DNA of 35,360 bases from Bacteroidota bacterium (lineage in GTDB: Bacteria > Bacteroidota > Ignavibacteria > SZUA-365): NCBI GenBank assembly GCA_029907355.1, contig JARYLZ010000026.1, forward strand, positions 1-35,360. Reading direction: 5' to 3'. The notes beneath the pieces were generated by a model. That model saw only the letters and a list, made by a program, of their open reading frames with translations, was not told the DNA's origin and searched no databases. Below, in pieces: positions 23,744 through 33,828 of this stretch (its first letter is position 1; every line of letters begins with the position of its first letter). Both the position numbers and the translations under genes were made by a program.

Positions 23744-25519
23744 TCAATAACCCGCTGCAGAGCCGTTGCCGCGCGGATCCGAGCACCCTTCGTACAGACG
23801 TGCACGCCCATTGTACAATACGGCGTCGATCCTCCCGAACGGTCTGGTGGGTACAAGCGCATGACCCATGGCGCGAAGGGTGTCCGCGACCTCTGCGGGG
23901 ATGCTATCCTCTTCGTAATACAAGGTATCCGGCCGCCATTGATGGTGAACCCGCGGCGCGGCGACCGCGCTATCCAGAGCCATCCCATGTTCGAGAACGT
24001 TGCGGAAAACCTGAAGCACGGTTGACACGATGCGCGAGCCTCCGGGGCTCCCGAGAATGAACACCGGCCTGTCGTTCTTGACCACGATGACCGGCGTCAT
24101 CGAACTGACCATCCGTTTCCCCGGTCGGATGACATTGCAGGGGCTCCCGGCCAGTCCGAATTGATTCGGTTCGCCGATGCGTATACTGAAGTCGTCCATT
24201 TCGTTATTCAAGAGAAAACCCGCCCCCTCGACGACGCATTTGGACCCACAGACATCGTTCAACGTGGTCGTGACGGCGACCGCATTCCCCCACTTGTCGG
24301 CGATTGAATAATGCGTCGTCTGGTTTTTTTCCCCATCGATGCACCCCGCCCCGCCGACAGGGAGAAGCGGAGATGTCCGGTCGAGACGTATCCGGGAACG
24401 GATGCGTCGGGCCGTTTCCTCCGAGAGTAACGAATCGAGAGGCACGTCCACGAAGGCCGGGTCGCCGAAAAATTTCCATCGGTCCGAGAAGGCGAACCGC
24501 AAGGCCTCGGCCATGAGGTGGATATAGCGCGCCGAGCCGTAGATTGGTTCTTCGTTTCCCTCGCCCGCCTCCAGGATATTCAGCGCTTGGAGGAATGCGG
24601 CACCGCCTGCGCTGGGCGGGGGAACCGTCAGGATATCGTACCCGTGCCAGCGAGCATGCAACGGCCGCCGGACGATGCAGCGATAGGATGCGAGATCTTC
24701 GTGCGTGATCACCCCACCGCCTTCGCGCATCTGTCGTACGATGAGGTCCGCCGTTTCACCGCGGTAGAAACCATCCCTCCCCTGCCGCACGATACGCTCG
24801 AGCGTACAGGCCAGATCCGGTTGGCGGAACCGTTCACCGCGGCGGTACGGACGCCCGCTGCGAGTGAACACGCGGGAGGATGAGGGGTACCGTTCGAAGG
24901 ACGGCCGAAGCCGCTCGAAGAGGCGCACCGTCTCCAACGGGAGAACCCACCCCTTCCGTGCGAGATCGACGGCAGGTCGTATCAGCTCCGCCCTCGTCAT
25001 TGTCCCGTACCGTTCGAGCGCCTGCAGGAGCCCGTCGACCGTACCGGGCACACCTGCCGCGAGGGGTCCCTCGAGGGAAGCGCCCGGGATGACGCGCCCC
25101 GCACTATCGAGAAACATGTCCGGGCGTGCGGCCGCCGGTGCGGTTTCGCGTGCGTCGATGACCGCCTCGCGCCCATCGGCCATGCGGATGAGGATGAAAG
25201 ATCCGCCGCCGATGTTCCCCGCCGACGGGTACGTCACGGCGAGGGCGAACCCGACGGCGACCGCTGCGTCGACGGCATTGCCGCCTGAACGAAGGACACG
25301 GACGCCGATATCGGTCGCAAGGGGGGAGGCGGTGACGACCATCGCATGCGGGGCACGTGCGATGCGTCCTGCACTCGCCCGGGATTGCGGCACACAGTGC
25401 TGGTCAGGATAGAGTGCAACGAGGGACACCGCGAAAAACAGAACTGCCGCCCGGACCGTTACACAGCGGCGGGGATCAGTATTGCCGGATTCCGGGATGG
25501 AGTGTACATTGATCATCAT
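23744..25519 (-). CDS. ggt: Gamma-glutamyltransferase
   Basis: This enzyme cleaves glutathione and other gamma-glutamyl compounds, moving the glutamyl group to water or an amino acid, in the periplasm. The 591-residue precursor has an N-terminal signal segment (about 23-37). Conserved parts include HAMVVTASPLATDIGVRVLRSGGNAVDAAVA, GNIGGGSFILIR, DARETAP and GVPGTVDGL in the large subunit. NQTTHYSIADKWGNAVAVTTTLN places the autocatalytic cleavage and nucleophile Thr at 401, the first residue of the mature small subunit. GAGFLLNNEMDDFS and GSPGGSRI complete the active site. The start is uncertain: ATG 25519 or 25516, with no clear Shine-Dalgarno sequence. Only 27 bases separate it from the divergent VWA gene. 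Confidence 0.93.
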   Translation of the reverse strand: MMINVHSIPESGNTDPRRCVTVRAAVLFFAVSLVALYPDQHCVPQSRASAGRIARAPHAMVVTASPLATDIGVRVLRSGGNAVDAAVAVGFALAVTYPSAGNIGGGSFILIRMADGREAVIDARETAPAAARPDMFLDSAGRVIPGASLEGPLAAGVPGTVDGLLQALERYGTMTRAELIRPAVDLARKGWVLPLETVRLFERLRPSFERYPSSSRVFTRSGRPYRRGERFRQPDLACTLERIVRQGRDGFYRGETADLIVRQMREGGGVITHEDLASYRCIVRRPLHARWHGYDILTVPPPSAGGAAFLQALNILEAGEGNEEPIYGSARYIHLMAEALRFAFSDRWKFFGDPAFVDVPLDSLLSEETARRIRSRIRLDRTSPLLPVGGAGCIDGEKNQTTHYSIADKWGNAVAVTTTLNDVCGSKCVVEGAGFLLNNEMDDFSIRIGEPNQFGLAGSPCNVIRPGKRMVSSMTPVIVVKNDRPVFILGSPGGSRIVSTVLQVFRNVLEHGMALDSAVAAPRVHHQWRPDTLYYEEDSIPAEVADTLRAMGHALVPTRPFGRIDAVLYNGRARLYEGCSDPRGNGSAAGY

Positions 25520-25546
25520 TCAAAATATCGGATAGGAACCACGGTG

Positions 25547-27214
25547 ATGATGTCCGTGCCGCGAAGAATCGCCGTTTTCGACACGCGCCACGCGCTGAGA
25601 AGCATCGTGCACGCAAGCCTTCTCATCCTGTTCGCCGCTTCCTCGGCGTCCGCCCAACTCCAGCTCAGTCTGGACACCGTGGACGCGAGTCAATTTCCGA
25701 CAATACGCCTCAAAGTCAAAGCACGCTCGGGCGGGAACACGATACGGGGGCTCGCGGTCGACCAGTTCACCGTTTTCGAGGACGGCACTGTTCAGGCGCC
25801 CATCACCGGCTCCTGCGACGACACGACGAAGAGCGGACCGGTGTCGGTCATGCTGGTGATCGACCGGAGCGGCAGCATGGGCCCCATATTCGGGAGCAAC
25901 GCCATCGTGGACGCCAAGCGGGCGGCGAAAGCGTTCGTCGACCGGCTTTCTCCGGAAGACGAAGGCGCTCTCATCTCGTTCAACGACAGACCCTCGTACG
26001 ACCAGAACTGGACGCGCGACAAGAATCTCTTGAAATCGAAAATCGACGGGATCTCGACGGGAGGCGGGACCGCCATCTGGGATGCGATCATCACGGCCCT
26101 CTCCTACCTCACCCCGCGGACGAATAGGAAAGTGCTGATCCTTCTCACGGACGGGGCGGACGGGGCCAGCACATCACCCTTCTCGGCAGCACGGGACGCA
26201 CTCCGCACCTCCGGCGTCACGGCATTCACGATAGGGCTCGGTTCCCTCACCAACGAGGCACAGCTCCGCGAGCTGGCGCTCGTCAGCGGCGGGAAGTACT
26301 ATACGGCGCCGGACTCTCGTGATCTCGACGAAATCTATCTGGCCATCTCGCGGGAGATCATCCCCACCGGCATCTGCGAGCTGCGGTACACGTCGAAACT
26401 CGACTGCCTCGACGGTTCCGCCCACACCGTCGAGGTGTCGCTCCTGTACGGTGGGCAGAGGGCGTTCGCATCCGGATCCTTCATCGCCCCCACCGATTCC
26501 GCCACCCTTTCCTACGCGTTTCTTTCGACGGGTTCGCACCACTCGGTCGACGCGGGGAACCGTCTCGATATTCCGATCCTCCTCACGCGCATCACGACGA
26601 ACCGCCCCATTTCCTCATACACGTTCACGATCGATTTCGACCGGGGACTCCTCCACCTCGACTCCGTCTCGACGAGCACGCTCACGGCGGGCAGCTCCGT
26701 GAACGTCCAAGAGACGACGAGCGGTTGCAGGGTCCGCGTCGCCTGCCCCTCGCCCGTCACCCGTATAGGAACGCTGGTCACGCTCCATTTCCACGCGGCG
26801 GATATCTTCGCCAGCGAGAGGACACCCCTCACCCTATCCCCCCCGCTCGTCGACCAGCCCTGCACGGTCACGGCATCGGAGAACGCCATCGTCATCATCA
26901 GCGGGAGATGCGAACGGGCATTGATCCGCCTCGCGCCGACCGCCGCCAAGGAATCGAGCGCTTTGCTCGCCGTCACGCCGAACCCCTTCAATCCCACGAC
27001 GACTGCGGTGTTCCGGGTCGCCGAGACAGGGCCTACCTCGATCGTCCTGCGGGACATCCTCGGACGTGCCGTGCTCCGTGTATTCGGACGCGATGCCGTA
27101 CCCGGCGTGTACCGCGTCATCGTCGACGGGGAACGTCTCTCGAGCGGCATGTACATGCTCGAGCTCGTCGCACCGGACGGCATCGACCGAAGAAGCGTGC
27201 TGCTCCTCCGCTAA
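25547..27214 (+). CDS. Secreted von Willebrand A domain protein with C-terminal sorting domain
   Basis: The 555-residue protein has a signal peptide ending SASAQ (about residue 37). After an N-terminal beta domain (about 38-95, with FTVFEDG) comes a VWA domain (about 98-285) whose MIDAS metal site is intact: Asp106, Ser108, Ser110 in DRSGS, Thr175 in GGGTAIWD and Asp202 in LTDGAD. It would bind a ligand through a divalent ion. Residues about 340-450 are cohesin-like beta structure. The end, TPNPFNPTTTAVFRV then LRDILGRAV and LSSGMYMLEL, is a sorting domain of the PNPFNP type used by T9SS-like export. ATG 25547 (or 25550) has AGGAA upstream; the open frame extends back into the divergent ggt but that part is not protein-like. 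Ligand unknown. The SRP RNA gene ends 8 bases away on the other strand. Confidence 0.85.
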   Translation: MMSVPRRIAVFDTRHALRSIVHASLLILFAASSASAQLQLSLDTVDASQFPTIRLKVKARSGGNTIRGLAVDQFTVFEDGTVQAPITGSCDDTTKSGPVSVMLVIDRSGSMGPIFGSNAIVDAKRAAKAFVDRLSPEDEGALISFNDRPSYDQNWTRDKNLLKSKIDGISTGGGTAIWDAIITALSYLTPRTNRKVLILLTDGADGASTSPFSAARDALRTSGVTAFTIGLGSLTNEAQLRELALVSGGKYYTAPDSRDLDEIYLAISREIIPTGICELRYTSKLDCLDGSAHTVEVSLLYGGQRAFASGSFIAPTDSATLSYAFLSTGSHHSVDAGNRLDIPILLTRITTNRPISSYTFTIDFDRGLLHLDSVSTSTLTAGSSVNVQETTSGCRVRVACPSPVTRIGTLVTLHFHAADIFASERTPLTLSPPLVDQPCTVTASENAIVIISGRCERALIRLAPTAAKESSALLAVTPNPFNPTTTAVFRVAETGPTSIVLRDILGRAVLRVFGRDAVPGVYRVIVDGERLSSGMYMLELVAPDGIDRRSVLLLR

Positions 27215-27610: not shown

Positions 27611-28180
27611 TCACTGGAACCTTCCATTGCGGGTAGAGACGACACGACACCCTTCCTGAACCCCGTGCCGCTCGCAGAAACCACCGTTGACCTCAAGCAC
27701 GTATCGAGCGGGCTTCCCCGACTCGAGAGACTGCGAAGAAAACGGGGTCGTTCTCGTGTGAATCTTGACGATGATTCCTTTCCCATCGATGAAGATGATA
27801 TCGAGCGGCAACTGGGTGTTGACCATCCAGAACGCGCGGGGTTCCTCTTCCTCGAAGATGAAGAACATCCCCTCGTTTTCAGCCATCTGCATCCTTCCCA
27901 TGAGTCCGCGTACGCGTTCCTCTTCCCGCTCGGCGAATTCCGCTGTCACCGTGGTGAGGAGCACGCCATCCGGCGAAAGGATCTGGACGATGCCGTCCTT
28001 CCGGAATGGCGGGGCACCACTGCGGCGATCATCCGGCCGCAAGGTCTCCGACGGTTTCTCTCTCGAGGAGAAGACCGTAAAGAGAAGGATAAGCACGATG
28101 GCTGCCAGTGCAGCGCCTCCTCCGACGACGAAGGAGAGTTTCGGTTTTCCTCGCGTGCCGTGTCTTGCTTTGTTCGTCAT
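27611..28180 (-). CDS. DUF192 family protein, membrane-anchored
   Basis: The 189-residue protein has a basic N-terminus and one membrane segment (about 15-37), then a DUF192 domain (about 60-185). Diagnostic parts are VTAEFAEREEERVRGLMGRMQMAENEGMFFIFEE, FWMVNTQLPLDIIFID, IVKIHTRTTPFSS and ARYVLEVNGGFCERHGVQEG. The family is periplasmic or extracellular and of unknown function. ATG 28180 is the best start, though GAGGA sits too close to serve as a good ribosome-binding site; a TTG at 28237 is an alternative that only adds an Arg-rich stretch. The gene is divergent from the ECF sigma operon, with 272 bases between them, and precedes the SRP RNA on the same strand. Confidence 0.85.
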   Translation of the reverse strand: MTNKARHGTRGKPKLSFVVGGGAALAAIVLILLFTVFSSREKPSETLRPDDRRSGAPPFRKDGIVQILSPDGVLLTTVTAEFAEREEERVRGLMGRMQMAENEGMFFIFEEEEPRAFWMVNTQLPLDIIFIDGKGIIVKIHTRTTPFSSQSLESGKPARYVLEVNGGFCERHGVQEGCRVVSTRNGRFQ

Positions 28181-28391
28181 TCCTCGACAGATTCGATTCG
28201 ATGGAACGAAGGTATGGAGGCCCCGCCTGCGAACCAATACGCTGGGTTCCCTCCGATACGATCAACGTCGTACCCCAGCGACGGGAACGCGTCGGGGAAA
28301 CATCCTTGGCAAACACTGAACGTATTGACAAATAAAGATTTCTCTGCATCGTCTATGTAACTTTCCATGAGACGTGCTTGTCTTCATCCAG

Positions 28392-28452: not shown

Positions 28453-28977
28453 ATGACCGAAGCGGAACGAAGGAGGGCATTCAACGAGATCTACGCCGAG
28501 TACGACCGGCGGTTATTCGCCTATTGCCTCTACGTCCTCGGAGACCGCGACAAAGCGAAGGATGTATTCCAGAACATCTTCATCAAGGTGTATAAATCAA
28601 TCCATGCGCTCCGCGACACCGAGAAACTCGCCCATTGGCTCTTCCGCATCGCGCGTAACGAGTGTTTGAACGCGATGAAATCGATACAGCGAAAAGAGAA
28701 CAGGTACGTGCGCATCGACAAGTCGGAGAATTCCCCTTCCCTCGCCGCTGAGGGGTCGGCGGAATACACCGACGAGATCGAACATGTCCGGTGGGGGCTT
28801 CAACAGCTTCCGCCCGAATACCGCGAGGCGCTCGTGCTCGCGGAATTCGAGGGCTACTCTCTGAAGGAAATCGCAGAGCTGACGGGAGCGAGCCTCTCGA
28901 ACGTCAAAGTGCGCATCTTCCGGGCAAAGAAGAAGCTTCACACGATCCTGCAACCAATCCTCAACGACTATGATTGA
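28453..28977 (+). CDS. ECF-family RNA polymerase sigma factor
   Basis: The 174-residue protein has sigma region 2 at about 10-75 (YDRRLFAYCLYVLGDRDKAKDVFQNIFIKVYK, then AHWLFRIARNECLN) and region 4 at about 115-165 (LPPEYREALVLAEFEGYSLKEIAELTGASLSNVKVRIFRAKKKLH), with the helix-turn-helix that reads the -35 box. No regions 1 or 3 exist, as expected for group 4 sigma factors. It would redirect RNA polymerase to a small regulon, probably including its own operon. No Shine-Dalgarno sequence precedes ATG 28453. The last 8 bases overlap the anti-sigma gene, so the pair is translated together. The inducing signal is unknown. Confidence 0.95.
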   Translation: MTEAERRRAFNEIYAEYDRRLFAYCLYVLGDRDKAKDVFQNIFIKVYKSIHALRDTEKLAHWLFRIARNECLNAMKSIQRKENRYVRIDKSENSPSLAAEGSAEYTDEIEHVRWGLQQLPPEYREALVLAEFEGYSLKEIAELTGASLSNVKVRIFRAKKKLHTILQPILNDYD

Positions 28978-29689
28978 CCACATCGAAGAACTCATCGTCG
29001 CCTACCTGCACCGCGGGCTCAGCCAGGAGCAGGAGCGCGAGCTGTTCGACGCGTGCCGCAACAATCCCGACGTCGCCACGTTGCTGCGGCAGCACGTCGT
29101 TCTCTCCCTCAAATTGCGCGCCGTCCGCGACCGCACCGAGGTGCCGCTGGAAACCCGTAACGAGCTCATCGAGCGGATCAATGCGCTCCCCGTCCCGCAA
29201 GAGACCGCTCCAGTGGGACCGCGGCGCCGTTACACCCCGATGCATCTCTTCGGGGGTATGTTCGCGACGGCCGCCGTCACGGCCTGCGTAGTGTTCCTGC
29301 TGCTGCCTATCCGGGGGACACCGCCGGCCTCCCCCGTCGCGATGGTGCATGACACCGTCGCGGTGACCCTTCGCGATACGGTTACCGTCGTCCGGACCGT
29401 GCGCATCGATGCACGCCGGTCCGCCGCGGAGACCGTGTCGCCCGCAGCCGTCGAAAGCGGAAACCTCGCCGTTTCCGGAGACGTATCGAAGGATTCCCGG
29501 ACCGCAGAGACGGGAGGGGACGAACCGATTCTCGTAAAGGAAACGGACGACGATCTCAACATCGTAGATGTCGCCGATGTCGCCGAAGCTCGCAGAACAT
29601 CCGGCCCATCCTGGATCCAACAGTACAACGTCATGCTATCCCGCCTCGAAACCGTGAAAATTTCTTCGAACGATCGTATTCTCCACTGA
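28970..29689 (+). CDS. Probable membrane anti-sigma factor
   Basis: This 239-residue protein begins inside the sigma gene's stop region (ATGATTGA overlap). The N-terminal cytoplasmic part (1-80) has the short helices of anti-sigma proteins: ELIVAYLHRGLSQEQERELFDACRNNPDVATLLRQH. There is no HxxxCxxC zinc motif, so it is not a ZAS-type anti-sigma factor. One membrane helix spans about 92-113 (LFGGMFATAAVTACVVFLLLP). The outer part has short repeats around DTVAVTLRDTVTVVRTV and a low-complexity, acidic tail. It would hold the sigma factor at the membrane until an envelope signal releases it. This role is inferred from position and topology; no family signature is strong. Confidence 0.75.
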   Translation: MIDHIEELIVAYLHRGLSQEQERELFDACRNNPDVATLLRQHVVLSLKLRAVRDRTEVPLETRNELIERINALPVPQETAPVGPRRRYTPMHLFGGMFATAAVTACVVFLLLPIRGTPPASPVAMVHDTVAVTLRDTVTVVRTVRIDARRSAAETVSPAAVESGNLAVSGDVSKDSRTAETGGDEPILVKETDDDLNIVDVADVAEARRTSGPSWIQQYNVMLSRLETVKISSNDRILH

Positions 29690-29692
29690 ACG

Positions 29693-31168
29693 ATGGACAC
29701 GACTCGAAAGATCGGGGCGTTCCTCGCCGTTTTCCTTACCCTGGCCGGTGCAGGGTTCCCCCCGGCTTCAGGGCAGGACGTCTCCGATTTCACCGTCCAG
29801 ACGGGGAACGATCTCTTCCTCCGCGAGACACAACGGGCACTCGCATCGGAAGACTTCGCATTCCTCCCCTCGCTCGATTGTTCGTTCGAGTACATCCGCC
29901 GATTCGAGAACCGCGACATCACATACCGGCGAGGGCCTATCCCCCTCCGTCAAACATCGGCCGCGGTTCTCCAAGAGGCCCATGCGGCGGGTGGGAACGA
30001 GCCCGTCTCCGCCGCCGTGGGGGAGCGAACGTGTTTCGTCGGGAGCATGCTCGTCGATCTCCCCCGCCCGGGTGAAGCTTCCGGGCATGTCTCCAGCGCC
30101 GACGAATACCGGCGCTACTTGCTCCGGGTCTCGATCGTCCCGCTCGCATACCAGGATGCCCGCCTCACCGCGCGAGTTCTCCTGGAACGTGCCGTCGTAT
30201 CCGCCGTGGGAAGGGAGGTGACCATCCTCCAGAACGAAGTGTTCGGGAGAACCGTGGATATCACCGGAAACGAACCGTTGTATTTCGATCTCCCGAACTG
30301 GGAACCGGTTACGGAGGCATTCGCGAACGCCGTCCCGCCTTCACTGGAAGAGGCGCTCCTCATCACGCTCGAAACCCCTCGGCACTTCGGGTTCTCCCGC
30401 AATGTACCGGAACCGTTCGGGACGAGTACGCGCATATCCTACGCCGTCCCCACCGCCAGCATTGTGAAACTCTCGATCGCAGTGAACGGCGTCGAGCGCG
30501 TCATCGATCGCGGGCGCCGCGAAGCGGGCACATACCACGTCCAGTGGACCCCGGGCGACATTCCGGACGGCGTGTACACTGCTCGGCTCAACGCGACGGA
30601 CAGCACGGGAAAGCCTCTGTACGACGGGGGAATGGAAATGACCAAGGACCGTTCCGCGGGTGGATACACGCCGCCCCGCTTAGCCGTCGCCCCGGGGGAC
30701 GCGACGCGTTTCATCGTCTCGACGGAAAGCGGTCTTGCATTCCAGTTCCCCGTAGACCGCAAGAAATCCCTGCGGCACATGTTCACGCATGTCGCCGTGC
30801 GAGTCGGTTACCGCTTGATGCCGTCCCTCGAGGTGGGCGTGGGAGGGGGACAGGATTCCTTCCACGAGTACCCCGCTCCCAACGTGGACGTCGAACGGAT
30901 CAGCGATTACGGCGGCGTCGTGGCTTACACCTACGGCTATGTGGGACCCTACGCCCGGTACACGTTCGGTTCGAGGCCGCTCCAACCGTTCGCGCAAGCC
31001 GCCGTTTTCTTTTCCGACTATGCTCCGATCGGGGAAATCGGGGCAGGTGTGCGCATGCGGATATTCCGGAACGTCACCCTCCACATCGCCCCCACCGTTG
31101 TGGCACATTTCAAATCGACGGTCAGCGCGAAAGTCGGGCTCCAGTACGGCATGGGGGTTCTTTTCTGA
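29693..31168 (+). CDS. Outer-membrane beta-barrel protein with FlgD-like Ig domain
   Basis: The 491-residue protein has a signal peptide (about 1-28, LAVFLTLAGAGFPPASGQ). Residues about 30-230 are of unknown fold. At about 255-305 there is a FlgD-type Ig segment: YAVPTASIVKLSIAVNGVE and GTYHVQWTPGDIPDGVYTARL. The last 140 residues alternate polar and hydrophobic (VAVRVGYRLMPSLEVGVGGG, YTYGYVGPYARYTFG, PFAQAAVFFSDY, GLQYGMGVLF) and end in phenylalanine, like a small eight-strand outer-membrane barrel. It starts 3 bases after the anti-sigma stop and its stop overlaps the next start by one base, so it belongs to the sigma operon. It could be the sensor or a structural target of the sigma factor. 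Confidence 0.75.
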   Translation: MDTTRKIGAFLAVFLTLAGAGFPPASGQDVSDFTVQTGNDLFLRETQRALASEDFAFLPSLDCSFEYIRRFENRDITYRRGPIPLRQTSAAVLQEAHAAGGNEPVSAAVGERTCFVGSMLVDLPRPGEASGHVSSADEYRRYLLRVSIVPLAYQDARLTARVLLERAVVSAVGREVTILQNEVFGRTVDITGNEPLYFDLPNWEPVTEAFANAVPPSLEEALLITLETPRHFGFSRNVPEPFGTSTRISYAVPTASIVKLSIAVNGVERVIDRGRREAGTYHVQWTPGDIPDGVYTARLNATDSTGKPLYDGGMEMTKDRSAGGYTPPRLAVAPGDATRFIVSTESGLAFQFPVDRKKSLRHMFTHVAVRVGYRLMPSLEVGVGGGQDSFHEYPAPNVDVERISDYGGVVAYTYGYVGPYARYTFGSRPLQPFAQAAVFFSDYAPIGEIGAGVRMRIFRNVTLHIAPTVVAHFKSTVSAKVGLQYGMGVLF

Positions 31169-31839
31169 TGAAAACCGCACCGGTCATCCTTCGCCCGCTC
31201 CTTGCATGCACTCTTGCCATCGCAGCATGGCATTGCGATTTCCCGGACGACCCGCCGCTGAAATCGAACGTCGCACCGCCGCCCGCGAACACCGTCGGCT
31301 CGATCGACAGCGCCGCATCGCTCCTCCCTCTTAAAGCCGGCGTCGGTTGGGTGTACCTGGCCGTCCCGAAATTGCAGAGCCCCCAATCCTCCGTCGCGTG
31401 GGTATCGGAAGTCGTTGTCCGCGGCGGACAGTACTATCGCGTCCCCTACGTGTTCGTCACCGGTGCTCCGCCGCGTCTCGTCAGCGGAATTCCCATCCTC
31501 CTCCGGAATGCCCAGCGCGGGATCGCCTTCTACGACATCAACGACGACACGCTGAGAGAGCCGGGCCGCCAGCCGCGCCTCATGTTCCAGCTCCCCTATC
31601 CCGCAGAGGCGGGAACGCGGCAAGTCCAACCTACGACACTCGGGACCGCAACGGTGACCGTCACAGCCAAGGACACATTGATCGATGATTATAACGGTGT
31701 ACCCGTCCGCACCTATCGATACGACGTCATCGACCCCGACGGCGAATCCATCGTTCTGTACATAGCCCCGGGAAGGGCAATAATGCGGGTGATCCGGCGC
31801 GACGTCGTGTTCCATACCCTGGCATGGATGGGCTTGTAA
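31168..31839 (+). CDS. Lipoprotein A of the ECF sigma operon (paralogue of next gene)
   Basis: The 223-residue protein starts at ATG 31168, overlapping the barrel gene's stop (TGATG). A signal peptide (RPLLACTLAIAAW) runs to HC-DFPDDPPLK. The cysteine aligns with that of the next gene, so lipidation is likely, but histidine before the cysteine is unusual for a lipobox. The mature protein has DSAASLLPLKAGVGWVYL (PL-x-x-G-x-x-W-x-Y module seen in Bacteroidota lipoproteins), LMFQLPYPAEAGTRQV, VTAKDTLIDDYNGVPVRTYRYD and VVFHTLAW. All of these recur in the downstream paralogue, about 40 percent alike by eye. The acidic DFPDD after the cysteine may act as a surface export signal. Function unknown. 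Confidence 0.8.
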   Translation: MKTAPVILRPLLACTLAIAAWHCDFPDDPPLKSNVAPPPANTVGSIDSAASLLPLKAGVGWVYLAVPKLQSPQSSVAWVSEVVVRGGQYYRVPYVFVTGAPPRLVSGIPILLRNAQRGIAFYDINDDTLREPGRQPRLMFQLPYPAEAGTRQVQPTTLGTATVTVTAKDTLIDDYNGVPVRTYRYDVIDPDGESIVLYIAPGRAIMRVIRRDVVFHTLAWMGL

Positions 31840-31918
31840 CAGGAACCAACATCGGGTGAGTACCGAAATTCCCAAGAGGAGTCTTCGAGAACCGCCGCAT
31901 TCTTCGGCAGGGTGCAGG

Positions 31919-32584
31919 GTGAAGGGAAAGGAGCTCTTTCCCCTCGCCGTTTTGTTTTCTTGCCTTTTCTCCTTCAACGGCTGCGATTTCCCCGACGACC
32001 CGCCCTTGAAGAACGGCAGGCAAGAACCGGAACCCGTCGTCGAGATCGACTCCGCTCGCTCGCTTCTTCCCTTGCGGACAGGAAATTTCTGGCAGTACCT
32101 CGTCATTCCGCGCGATGGGATCCCACAACCGCTCGTGCTCTGCCCGGCCACGGAAACGACATACGACGGCGTGACATACTACGAGCTGAAATACCTCTAC
32201 TTCTGCCCGAGCAATTACGCCGAGACGATCGCTGCTTTCCCGCCCGTCCTGCGCTGGCACGCAGGCGGCCTGAGTTTTCACGAACATCTTTCCCCCCTGG
32301 ACACGGCGAGCGTCCGCACCCCGCGGCTCATGTACACCCTCCCGTACCCGGCGCCCGTCGGCACGCGCGTGGAAAACCGGCGCAGCGAATACACGGTGGT
32401 CGTCGCGGCCAAGGACACGCTGATCCCGAACTTCAACGGGACGGCATCCTACCGCTGCTACCGGTACGATCTCTCTTTCCGTAACAGGCCTGCATCGCGC
32501 ATCTACGCCATCCCGGGCAGTGCATTGCTCCGTATCGAAAAAGGCGACCTCGTCTTCCACACGACGGATTGGGTCGTGAAGTGA
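31919..32584 (+). CDS. Lipoprotein B of the ECF sigma operon (paralogue of previous gene)
   Basis: Starting at GTG 31919 gives a 221-residue lipoprotein with a compact signal (KGKELFPLAVLFSCLFSFNGC), close to the length of its neighbour. The frame is also open from a GTG at 31856, but that adds a Pro/Ser/Arg-rich stretch before the signal. After the cysteine comes DFPDDPPLKNG, nearly the same as in lipoprotein A. DSARSLLPLRTGNFWQYL, LMYTLPYPAPVGTRVEN, VVAAKDTLIPNFNGTASYRCYRYD and LVFHTTDW match in order, so this is a tandem duplicate that has diverged. It contains extra cysteines (LCPATE, YFCPSN) absent from A. The 79-base gap after lipoprotein A is the largest inside the cassette. Function unknown. 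Confidence 0.8.
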   Translation: MKGKELFPLAVLFSCLFSFNGCDFPDDPPLKNGRQEPEPVVEIDSARSLLPLRTGNFWQYLVIPRDGIPQPLVLCPATETTYDGVTYYELKYLYFCPSNYAETIAAFPPVLRWHAGGLSFHEHLSPLDTASVRTPRLMYTLPYPAPVGTRVENRRSEYTVVVAAKDTLIPNFNGTASYRCYRYDLSFRNRPASRIYAIPGSALLRIEKGDLVFHTTDWVVK

Positions 32585-32664: not shown

Positions 32665-33828
32665 GTGAGCGGAAAAGGAACATTGGGTTTTCTCTGCACA
32701 TCCACGGCGTTGGGCGGGGCCGAGCTGAACGCGGTTCGTCTGGCGGGTTGGCTTGCCGCGCGGGGACGCCGCTGCATCGCGATCGGAGCGGAAGCCGGCC
32801 CCTACCTCGAACGATGCGTCGAAGCCGGAATTGAGACGGCGGATATCAAGCCGTTCGCGCGCTGGGGTATTCCCTTCTCCGCCCATCGCCTCAGCCGCAT
32901 TGTCCGCGATAGAGGGGTGGACCTTATCGTGTCGTTTTCCTCACAGGACACGCACATCGCCGCTGCCGCATCCCTCTTCGGCCGCAAGCGCGTCCCTTTT
33001 GCCCACTACCAGCAGATGCAAATCGGATCACCGCGTCGCGATCTTTTCCATCGGCTCGAACATTCCCTGCTCTCTGCATGGATCGCTCCCCTTCCCTGGC
33101 TCGCGCAACAAGCGCGGGAACTCACGCGAATCGCACCGGGGAAAATCGCCGTTATACCGTACGGGTTGGAACTCGATCGATTCCGTCGCCGCTCGGGGTC
33201 GCGGAAACACGCGCGCACCATTCTCTCGCTCCCCGACGATGCCTTCGTCATCGGCACGGTCGGCCGATTGGACCGAGGCAAGGGCCAGGAGTACCTCCTC
33301 CGAGCCGCCGCGAGGCTTCCCGTGCAGGGTAAGCTCCTCATCCTCATCGTCGGAGAGGATACACGCGGCGAACACCAGAGGTACGGCGAGTTCCTTCGGG
33401 GCCTTACCAGAGAACTCGGTCTCGAACAGGCGGTGCGGTTCCTGCCGTTCCGGCTGGACATCGAAACCGTTTTCCATGCCATGGACATTTTCGTCCTGAC
33501 CAGCTTATCCGAAACCTTCGGTATGGTGACCGTCGAGGCATTGGCGTCGGGTCTACCCGTCGTCGGTACCAACACGGCCGGCACACCCGAAATCATCCAT
33601 GACGGCGAGACGGGATTGCTCGTCGCTCCCGGCGATCCGGAGCGCCTGGCGCGGGCCCTCTACACGCTGATGGAAACACCGGAACTCCGTCACCGACTCG
33701 CGGAACAAGGGCGGCGGCACGCGGAGGAACGCTTTTCCCACCACCGGCAATGCGAGGAAATCGAAAAATTGGTCGACCGAATAATCGGGGAAAAAAATTT
33801 GGGCCAAGCCTCGTCCTTTTCCCGTTGA
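32665..33828 (+). CDS. GT4 family glycosyltransferase
   Basis: The 387-residue protein is a GT-B fold retaining glycosyltransferase. The N-terminal half begins LGFLCTSTALGGAELNAVRLAGWLAARG, typical for GT4. In the C-terminal half are PYGLELDRF (165-173), IGTVGRLDRGKG (196-207; Arg201 and Lys206 bind the donor phosphates) and the E-x7-E motif SETFGMVTVEALASGLPVVGT (Glu283, Glu291). It would add a sugar from a nucleotide donor to a lipid, polysaccharide or protein acceptor at the inner membrane face. The start codon is GTG 32665, with no clear Shine-Dalgarno sequence. It follows lipoprotein B by 80 bases on the same strand and could be read through from that operon. No other sugar genes are adjacent. 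Confidence 0.93.
   Translation: MSGKGTLGFLCTSTALGGAELNAVRLAGWLAARGRRCIAIGAEAGPYLERCVEAGIETADIKPFARWGIPFSAHRLSRIVRDRGVDLIVSFSSQDTHIAAAASLFGRKRVPFAHYQQMQIGSPRRDLFHRLEHSLLSAWIAPLPWLAQQARELTRIAPGKIAVIPYGLELDRFRRRSGSRKHARTILSLPDDAFVIGTVGRLDRGKGQEYLLRAAARLPVQGKLLILIVGEDTRGEHQRYGEFLRGLTRELGLEQAVRFLPFRLDIETVFHAMDIFVLTSLSETFGMVTVEALASGLPVVGTNTAGTPEIIHDGETGLLVAPGDPERLARALYTLMETPELRHRLAEQGRRHAEERFSHHRQCEEIEKLVDRIIGEKNLGQASSFSR

Follow-up and report, generated by a model that had tools for sequence, protein, structure and literature searches.

Architecture of the locus

The window, the whole stretch of 35,360 nucleotides that was analysed, contains five consecutive genes for an ECF sigma factor, a membrane anti-sigma factor, an outer-membrane (OM) β-barrel protein and two lipoproteins (Table 1). 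All five open reading frames (ORFs) are intact, and their positions, overlaps and gaps agree with those given by an earlier reading of the letters (the sequence-only reading). The sigma and anti-sigma genes overlap by 8 bases, a 3-base gap precedes the gene of the barrel protein, the latter overlaps that of lipoprotein 1 by 1 base, and 79 bases separate the two lipoprotein genes. For lipoprotein 2, a GTG at position 31856 is a possible earlier start, while homologues align from 31919. Among the five products, only the sigma factor has Pfam or NCBIfam domains above cut-off. It is 58-71% identical to its orthologues, and its nearest NCBIfam model, NF058625 (GFO_1088/PG0214 family), scores 111 bits, below the cut-off of 130.

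Table 1 Features of the cassette and its flanks, in window coordinates
Feature	Position	Strand	Evidence
ECF-type promoter, TGTAAC (28356-28361), 16-base spacer, TTGTC (28378-28382)	28356..28382	+	Conservation, matrix score
ECF sigma factor, 174 aa	28453..28977	+	Pfam Sigma70_r2 and r4_2
Membrane anti-sigma factor, 239 aa	28970..29689	+	Profile match to fused Dma-like anti-sigma domains
Anti-sigma factor, conserved tail at the C-terminus, WIQQYNVMLSRLETVKISSNDRILH, putative docking peptide	29612..29686	+	Conservation by region
Outer-membrane protein, 491 aa	29693..31168	+	AF2 model, Foldseek, homology to fused Dma-like barrels
Dma-type OM barrel domain	30710..31165	+	hhalign and HMM ranking
Lipoprotein 1, 223 aa	31168..31839	+	Motif after lipid Cys; AF2 pLDDT 84
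Lipoprotein 2, tandem relative of lipoprotein 1	31919..32584	+	39% identical to lipoprotein 1
GT4 glycosyltransferase, conserved next gene	32665..33828	+	Pfam Glycos_transf_1
DUF192 protein, conserved divergent neighbour	27611..28237	-	Domain search and synteny

Upstream in the window, positions 25346-27214 encode a VWA and cohesin-like protein whose T9SS type A sorting tail lies near the threshold (22.5 vs 23 bits).

Conservation of the cassette

To place the locus among its relatives, we used a sample of 41 genomes, 12 of them from the same GTDB family (the window's own genome being G000). The order sigma, anti-sigma, barrel, lipoprotein occurs in 12 of the 12 family genomes, one of which (G009) is cut inside the barrel gene by a contig edge, and the lipoprotein itself was likewise found in all 12. 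The 8-base overlap of the sigma and anti-sigma genes is kept in all ten further genomes that contain this junction, and the overlap of the barrel and lipoprotein genes in 11 of 11 relatives (1 base, but 4 in G001). Since gene order and overlaps are maintained between genera, the arrangement is not due to chance. The full block in these loci also includes the divergent DUF192 gene, which occupies the same place in all ten relatives whose contig covers that spot, and the GT4 glycosyltransferase gene, which follows the lipoprotein gene at a distance of 38-126 bases in 12 of 12 genomes and is possibly a member of the operon. As the whole neighbourhood is thus syntenic, adjacency alone is weaker evidence.

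In relatives, the conserved order covers four of the five genes: the tandem lipoprotein pair is restricted to G000 and G001, and the other ten family genomes carry a single copy. A second lipoprotein is thus no defining component of the system. Within 294 genomes of the class, full-length matches to the barrel protein, the lipoprotein and the anti-sigma factor were confined to this family. Scanning genome contigs with the barrel alignment returned seven loci, all in metagenome-assembled genomes (MAGs) labelled Ignavibacteria or Bacteroidetes, and the same scan with the barrel sequence alone gave no match.

The anti-sigma factor and the outer-membrane protein

The anti-sigma factor consists of an anti-sigma domain (residues 1-75), one transmembrane (TM) helix (96-114), a variable tether (about 115-214) and a conserved tail (215-239). 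As noted in the sequence-only reading, the usual zinc motif is missing: the N-terminal 90 residues contain neither HxxxCxxC nor a Pfam hit, and their single cysteine, C29, is invariant in 11 genomes. The protein therefore falls outside the zinc anti-sigma (ZAS, zf-HC2) family as defined by that motif. We infer that the sigma and anti-sigma factors form a cognate pair.

The tether is a low-complexity sequence of 96-158 residues across genomes with a mean conservation of 35%, as opposed to 73% for the tail, which always forms the last 24-25 residues of the protein. That the variable tether ends in a conserved tail suggests a partner in the periplasm. A profile of the tail found no match among the fused Dma-like proteins searched (see below). 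PDB sequence searches with profiles of the anti-sigma factor, the lipoprotein and the barrel protein returned nothing meaningful, the weak hits being noise.

The OM protein starts with a signal peptide, followed by a β-rich domain (about 28-226), a FlgD/Ig-like domain (about 227-318) and a C-terminal barrel (340-491). Its AF2 model (pLDDT 72.6) displays eight strands at residues 340-490, and Foldseek matched it to NspA (TMt 0.69), OmpA (0.62) and OmpX (0.56). An even number of strands places the N-terminus of the barrel in the periplasm, so that both the β-rich and the Ig-like domains are expected to be periplasmic. The β-rich domain is family-specific. The FlgD-like domain named in the sequence-only reading is present (matched residues about 227-305) as a generic Ig-like module, which has 43 further weak matches elsewhere in this genome.

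Homology to fused Dma-like proteins

The sequence-only reading knew of no named system with this composition. Named relatives do exist, however, in the Dma/Das systems of Bacteroidota, which appear here in split form. In Bacteroides thetaiotaomicron, members of the Dma family are composed of an anti-sigma domain, a TM helix, a disordered tether and a β-barrel (PMC13088901). The same work describes Dma2 and, as variants, the fused form and Dma3, which has a sigma domain fused on; for Dma1 it cites a PNAS report of 2024.

In distant families, the anti-sigma domain has weak matches in ORFs of 360-600 residues located directly 3' of ECF sigma genes, and most of these ORFs extend through a tether to a barrel at the C-terminus. 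Comparison of the anti-sigma domains of the window and of these fused Dma-like proteins by hhalign gave a probability of 98.6 (E 9e-16), a result that is partly circular because most of the fused proteins had been found via the profile of the window's anti-sigma factor. The corresponding comparison of the family barrels (alignment A6) with the fused barrels (A7) gave a probability of 96.9 (E 1.4e-10) and is not circular, the fused proteins having been picked by their anti-sigma domain or a neighbouring lipoprotein and not by their barrel. Furthermore, the A7 profile ranked 11 of 11 family barrels (E 3e-9 to 2.7e-3; the window's own at 9.3e-7) above all control barrels (best E 0.36), and hhalign comparisons with control or reversed alignments reached a probability of 1.5% or less. 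The controls were OMP_b-brl barrels of related genomes, with four sequences in the control alignment, and they rule out generic similarity among OM barrels as the cause of the match.

We also built a profile, A11, only from whole fused Dma-like proteins outside the family. Its positions 3-118 matched the window's anti-sigma gene (E 1.7e-9), and it matched the C-terminus of the barrel gene in five relatives, namely G005 (profile positions 264-411, E 6.9e-6), G009, G006, G007 and G003; at E 0.1 the barrel of the window itself was not matched. The two halves of A11 thus match two neighbouring genes, a Rosetta-stone pattern in which two genes equal one fused relative.

Profiles of the fused proteins matched in 140 of the 294 genomes at E 1e-4, some of the matches covering one half only. 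In nearly all loci read, an ECF sigma gene lies directly upstream of the fused gene, and a lipobox protein is encoded next in 37 of 52 loci, a raw count obtained with a heuristic lipobox rule. G224 and G213 have a sigma gene, a fused gene and two lipoprotein genes in this order, and the first of the two lipoproteins is a distant relative of those in the window. Lipoproteins 3' of fused genes (L143-L150, L155-L161 and others) often read C-x-S-P-L-D-x-D-T-P-R after the lipid cysteine, which is unusually conserved for a position that is usually linker.

Fused and split forms coexist in part of the family: relatives carry several fused Dma-like matches each, and in three loci (L209, L210 and L211, in G005, G004 and G003) the opposite strand carries a fused paralogue with its own ECF sigma gene at a distance of about 5 kb from the split cassette. 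Apart from the split pair and one weak anti-sigma match at C19, the MAG of the window (98.9% complete) has no such match. Some anti-sigma domains of the same type occur in the class without any barrel (L216), which is why the anti-sigma half alone does not show Dma kinship. A candidate second, independent split in G017 was discarded, as the stretches read contained only anti-sigma proteins without a barrel.

Like Dma, the cassette combines a directly preceding ECF sigma gene with an anti-sigma domain, one TM helix, a long tether and an OM β-barrel, the last located on the next gene. Both the barrel and the anti-sigma domain have homologues in fused Dma-like proteins from this class, and the proteins of B. 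thetaiotaomicron are likened to them by architecture. In contrast to Dma, where one polypeptide extends across both membranes, the anti-sigma factor and the barrel are encoded by separate genes in the family genomes, the anti-sigma factor has a tail of its own, and the barrel protein carries about 300 residues of periplasmic β-rich and Ig/FlgD domains beyond the fused form. Membership in the Dma family is further defined by a sigma factor of group ECF21. In our ECF tree, the sigma factors of the split systems fall on one long branch that is not clearly inside the sigma factors associated with fused Dma; the tree does not settle the position of this branch, and we set it aside as proof of kinship. 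Judged by homology, the cassette is a split homologue of a Dma-like system, and not Dma in the strict sense. The split form, the tail, the promoter and the LTXXQ target described below are new with respect to the Dma literature covered (PMC13088901, the original PNAS report apart).

The lipoproteins

The two lipoproteins, described in the sequence-only reading as related, are 38-39% identical. The lipid cysteine is followed by C-D-F-P-x-D-P-P-L (the cysteine included), which is invariant in 14 of 14 homologues. In several cassette lipoproteins the residue preceding the invariant cysteine is H, R or Q, which makes for an unusual lipobox (window 31168-31240; L027:8351; L028:8530; L036:7318).

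Among PDB folds, the lipoprotein model came closest to E. coli RseB (E 0.034, probability 0.90). Together with the frequent lipobox protein after fused Dma-like genes, this match raises the possibility that the lipoprotein is a direct regulator of the anti-sigma factor, in the manner of RseB and RseA, with the barrel as its OM anchor or client. The E. coli RpoE-RseA-RseB system indeed combines an ECF sigma factor, a single-TM anti-sigma factor and a periplasmic partner in an envelope-stress logic. It differs in that here an OM barrel is part of the operon, the partner is lipid-anchored and sequence kinship is not detectable. The TM-score of the match is only 0.29, with no PDB fold match below E 0.001, and members of the lipoprotein superfamily also occur away from sigma genes in distant genomes (for example L101, L103 and L107). 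The refuting outcome named in the sequence-only reading, homologues lying mostly apart from sigma factors, does not hold for the barrel. We found nothing beyond the weak fold match for the lipoprotein as an RseB homologue, and we regard direct regulation by it, which is compatible with a split Dma, as unlikely.

Promoter and predicted regulon

The dyad TGTAACYTTC-N11/12-YTGTC lies 5' of the sigma gene in 11 of the 11 genomes whose contig reaches that far, with small departures in three. Exact GTAAC-N17-TGTC was found in 7 of 10 relatives, compared to 2-3 at most in shuffled sequences. In the window, the dyad upstream of the sigma gene is the only match (0 expected), and its promoter matrix score of 25.1 compares with 11.2 for the next best site.

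Across 12 genomes, TGTAACYTTN{12,13}YTGTC occurs 27 times, versus once for the reversed control. Leaving aside the sigma promoters, most of these sites are found 5' of genes from a single family of LTXXQ lipoproteins (Spy/CpxP-like), assigned through PF07813 (E 6.9e-8 in one member). All 11 family genomes having such a gene, including that of the window, contain a copy with the site. In G000, the site lies 164 bases 5' of the start of the LTXXQ gene (L256, C169:7850-8737) and scores 16.9, against a 99% limit of about 10.3 for random windows. In G012, a genome without the cassette, the LTXXQ homologue has no such site (score 4.8). The L256 lipoprotein is a predicted second target of the sigma factor, and the response may be an autoregulated one by which the level of a membrane-anchored protein, chaperone-like or stress-sensing, is increased.

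The predicted regulon includes an LTXXQ/Metal_resist-like protein, a type that we take to have the CnrX kind of fold, and this would fit cell-surface signalling in response to metals or nutrients, as by FecI-FecR-FecA or CnrYXH. As in FecI-FecR-FecA, a sigma factor, a membrane anti-sigma factor and an OM protein are spread over three compartments, here encoded in one operon. However, the OM protein is a small 8-strand barrel and not a TonB-dependent receptor, Pfam and NCBIfam searches detected neither a TonB-dependent receptor nor a FecR domain, and by eye the LTXXQ proteins have no conserved pattern of metal ligands. This kind of signalling appears very improbable to us.

The autoregulatory promoter would also suit a conventional ECF/anti-sigma pair, of which barrel-less anti-sigma factors beside ECF genes provide examples in the class. 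The barrel, lipoprotein and GT4 protein would then be mere regulon members, and the anti-sigma factor would sense on its own and undergo regulated proteolysis. However, the neighbouring barrel belongs specifically to the type that relatives have fused to the anti-sigma domain, and the conserved tail points to a periplasmic partner. We therefore consider a conventional pair unlikely.

Proposed mechanism

In our preferred reading, to which we assign a probability of about 0.7, the cassette is a Dma-type circuit for envelope stress that regulates its own expression and has its dual-membrane anti-sigma factor split into two proteins. This reading builds on the order of the genes and its conservation, on both halves being homologous to fused Dma-like proteins, on the conserved tail and on a promoter site shared with the LTXXQ gene. 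The proposal of the sequence-only reading that the genes form one envelope-sensing unit over three compartments is well supported by the order, the overlaps, the ECF-type promoter and the homology to fused trans-envelope anti-sigma factors.

From these elements we infer sigma binding, docking, the signal, the release step and the activity of the regulon, as follows. The cytoplasmic anti-sigma domain would hold the ECF sigma factor, while the TM helix and the long flexible tether would cross the periplasm. The 25-residue tail would bind non-covalently to the periplasmic domains of the barrel protein and/or to the lipoprotein, forming with the extra domains of the former a plausible non-covalent bridge; this docking is the least-tested step. 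A disturbance of the OM, such as a misassembled barrel or an unoccupied lipoprotein, would break the bridge, upon which the anti-sigma factor may be cleaved or change shape and free the sigma factor. The latter would then transcribe its own operon and the LTXXQ lipoprotein gene from TGTAAC-N15/16-TTGTC promoters.

A further-reaching version, to which we give slightly less than even odds, is that of a naturally split dual-membrane anti-sigma factor in which a docking peptide replaces the covalent link between tether and barrel. The OM anchor would become a releasable sensor of a small regulon (the own operon and the LTXXQ lipoprotein), and ECF, Dma and lipoprotein would constitute a general three-part module of the class, split here.

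How the OM barrel informs the cytoplasmic sigma factor via fused Dma appears not to be settled in PMC13088901. In a naturally split system, the link can be made, broken and re-fused with both domains untouched, which allows a clean experiment. The predicted promoter, its LTXXQ target and the lipoprotein often found with Dma-like genes provide reporters and candidate partners for a large group of uncultured Bacteroidota.

Finally, the same promoter-like site also precedes the genes of an orthologous pair of uncharacterised proteins of about 370 residues (84% identical; L240 in G005:C139 and L244 in G002:C111), a possible extra regulon member in one genus.
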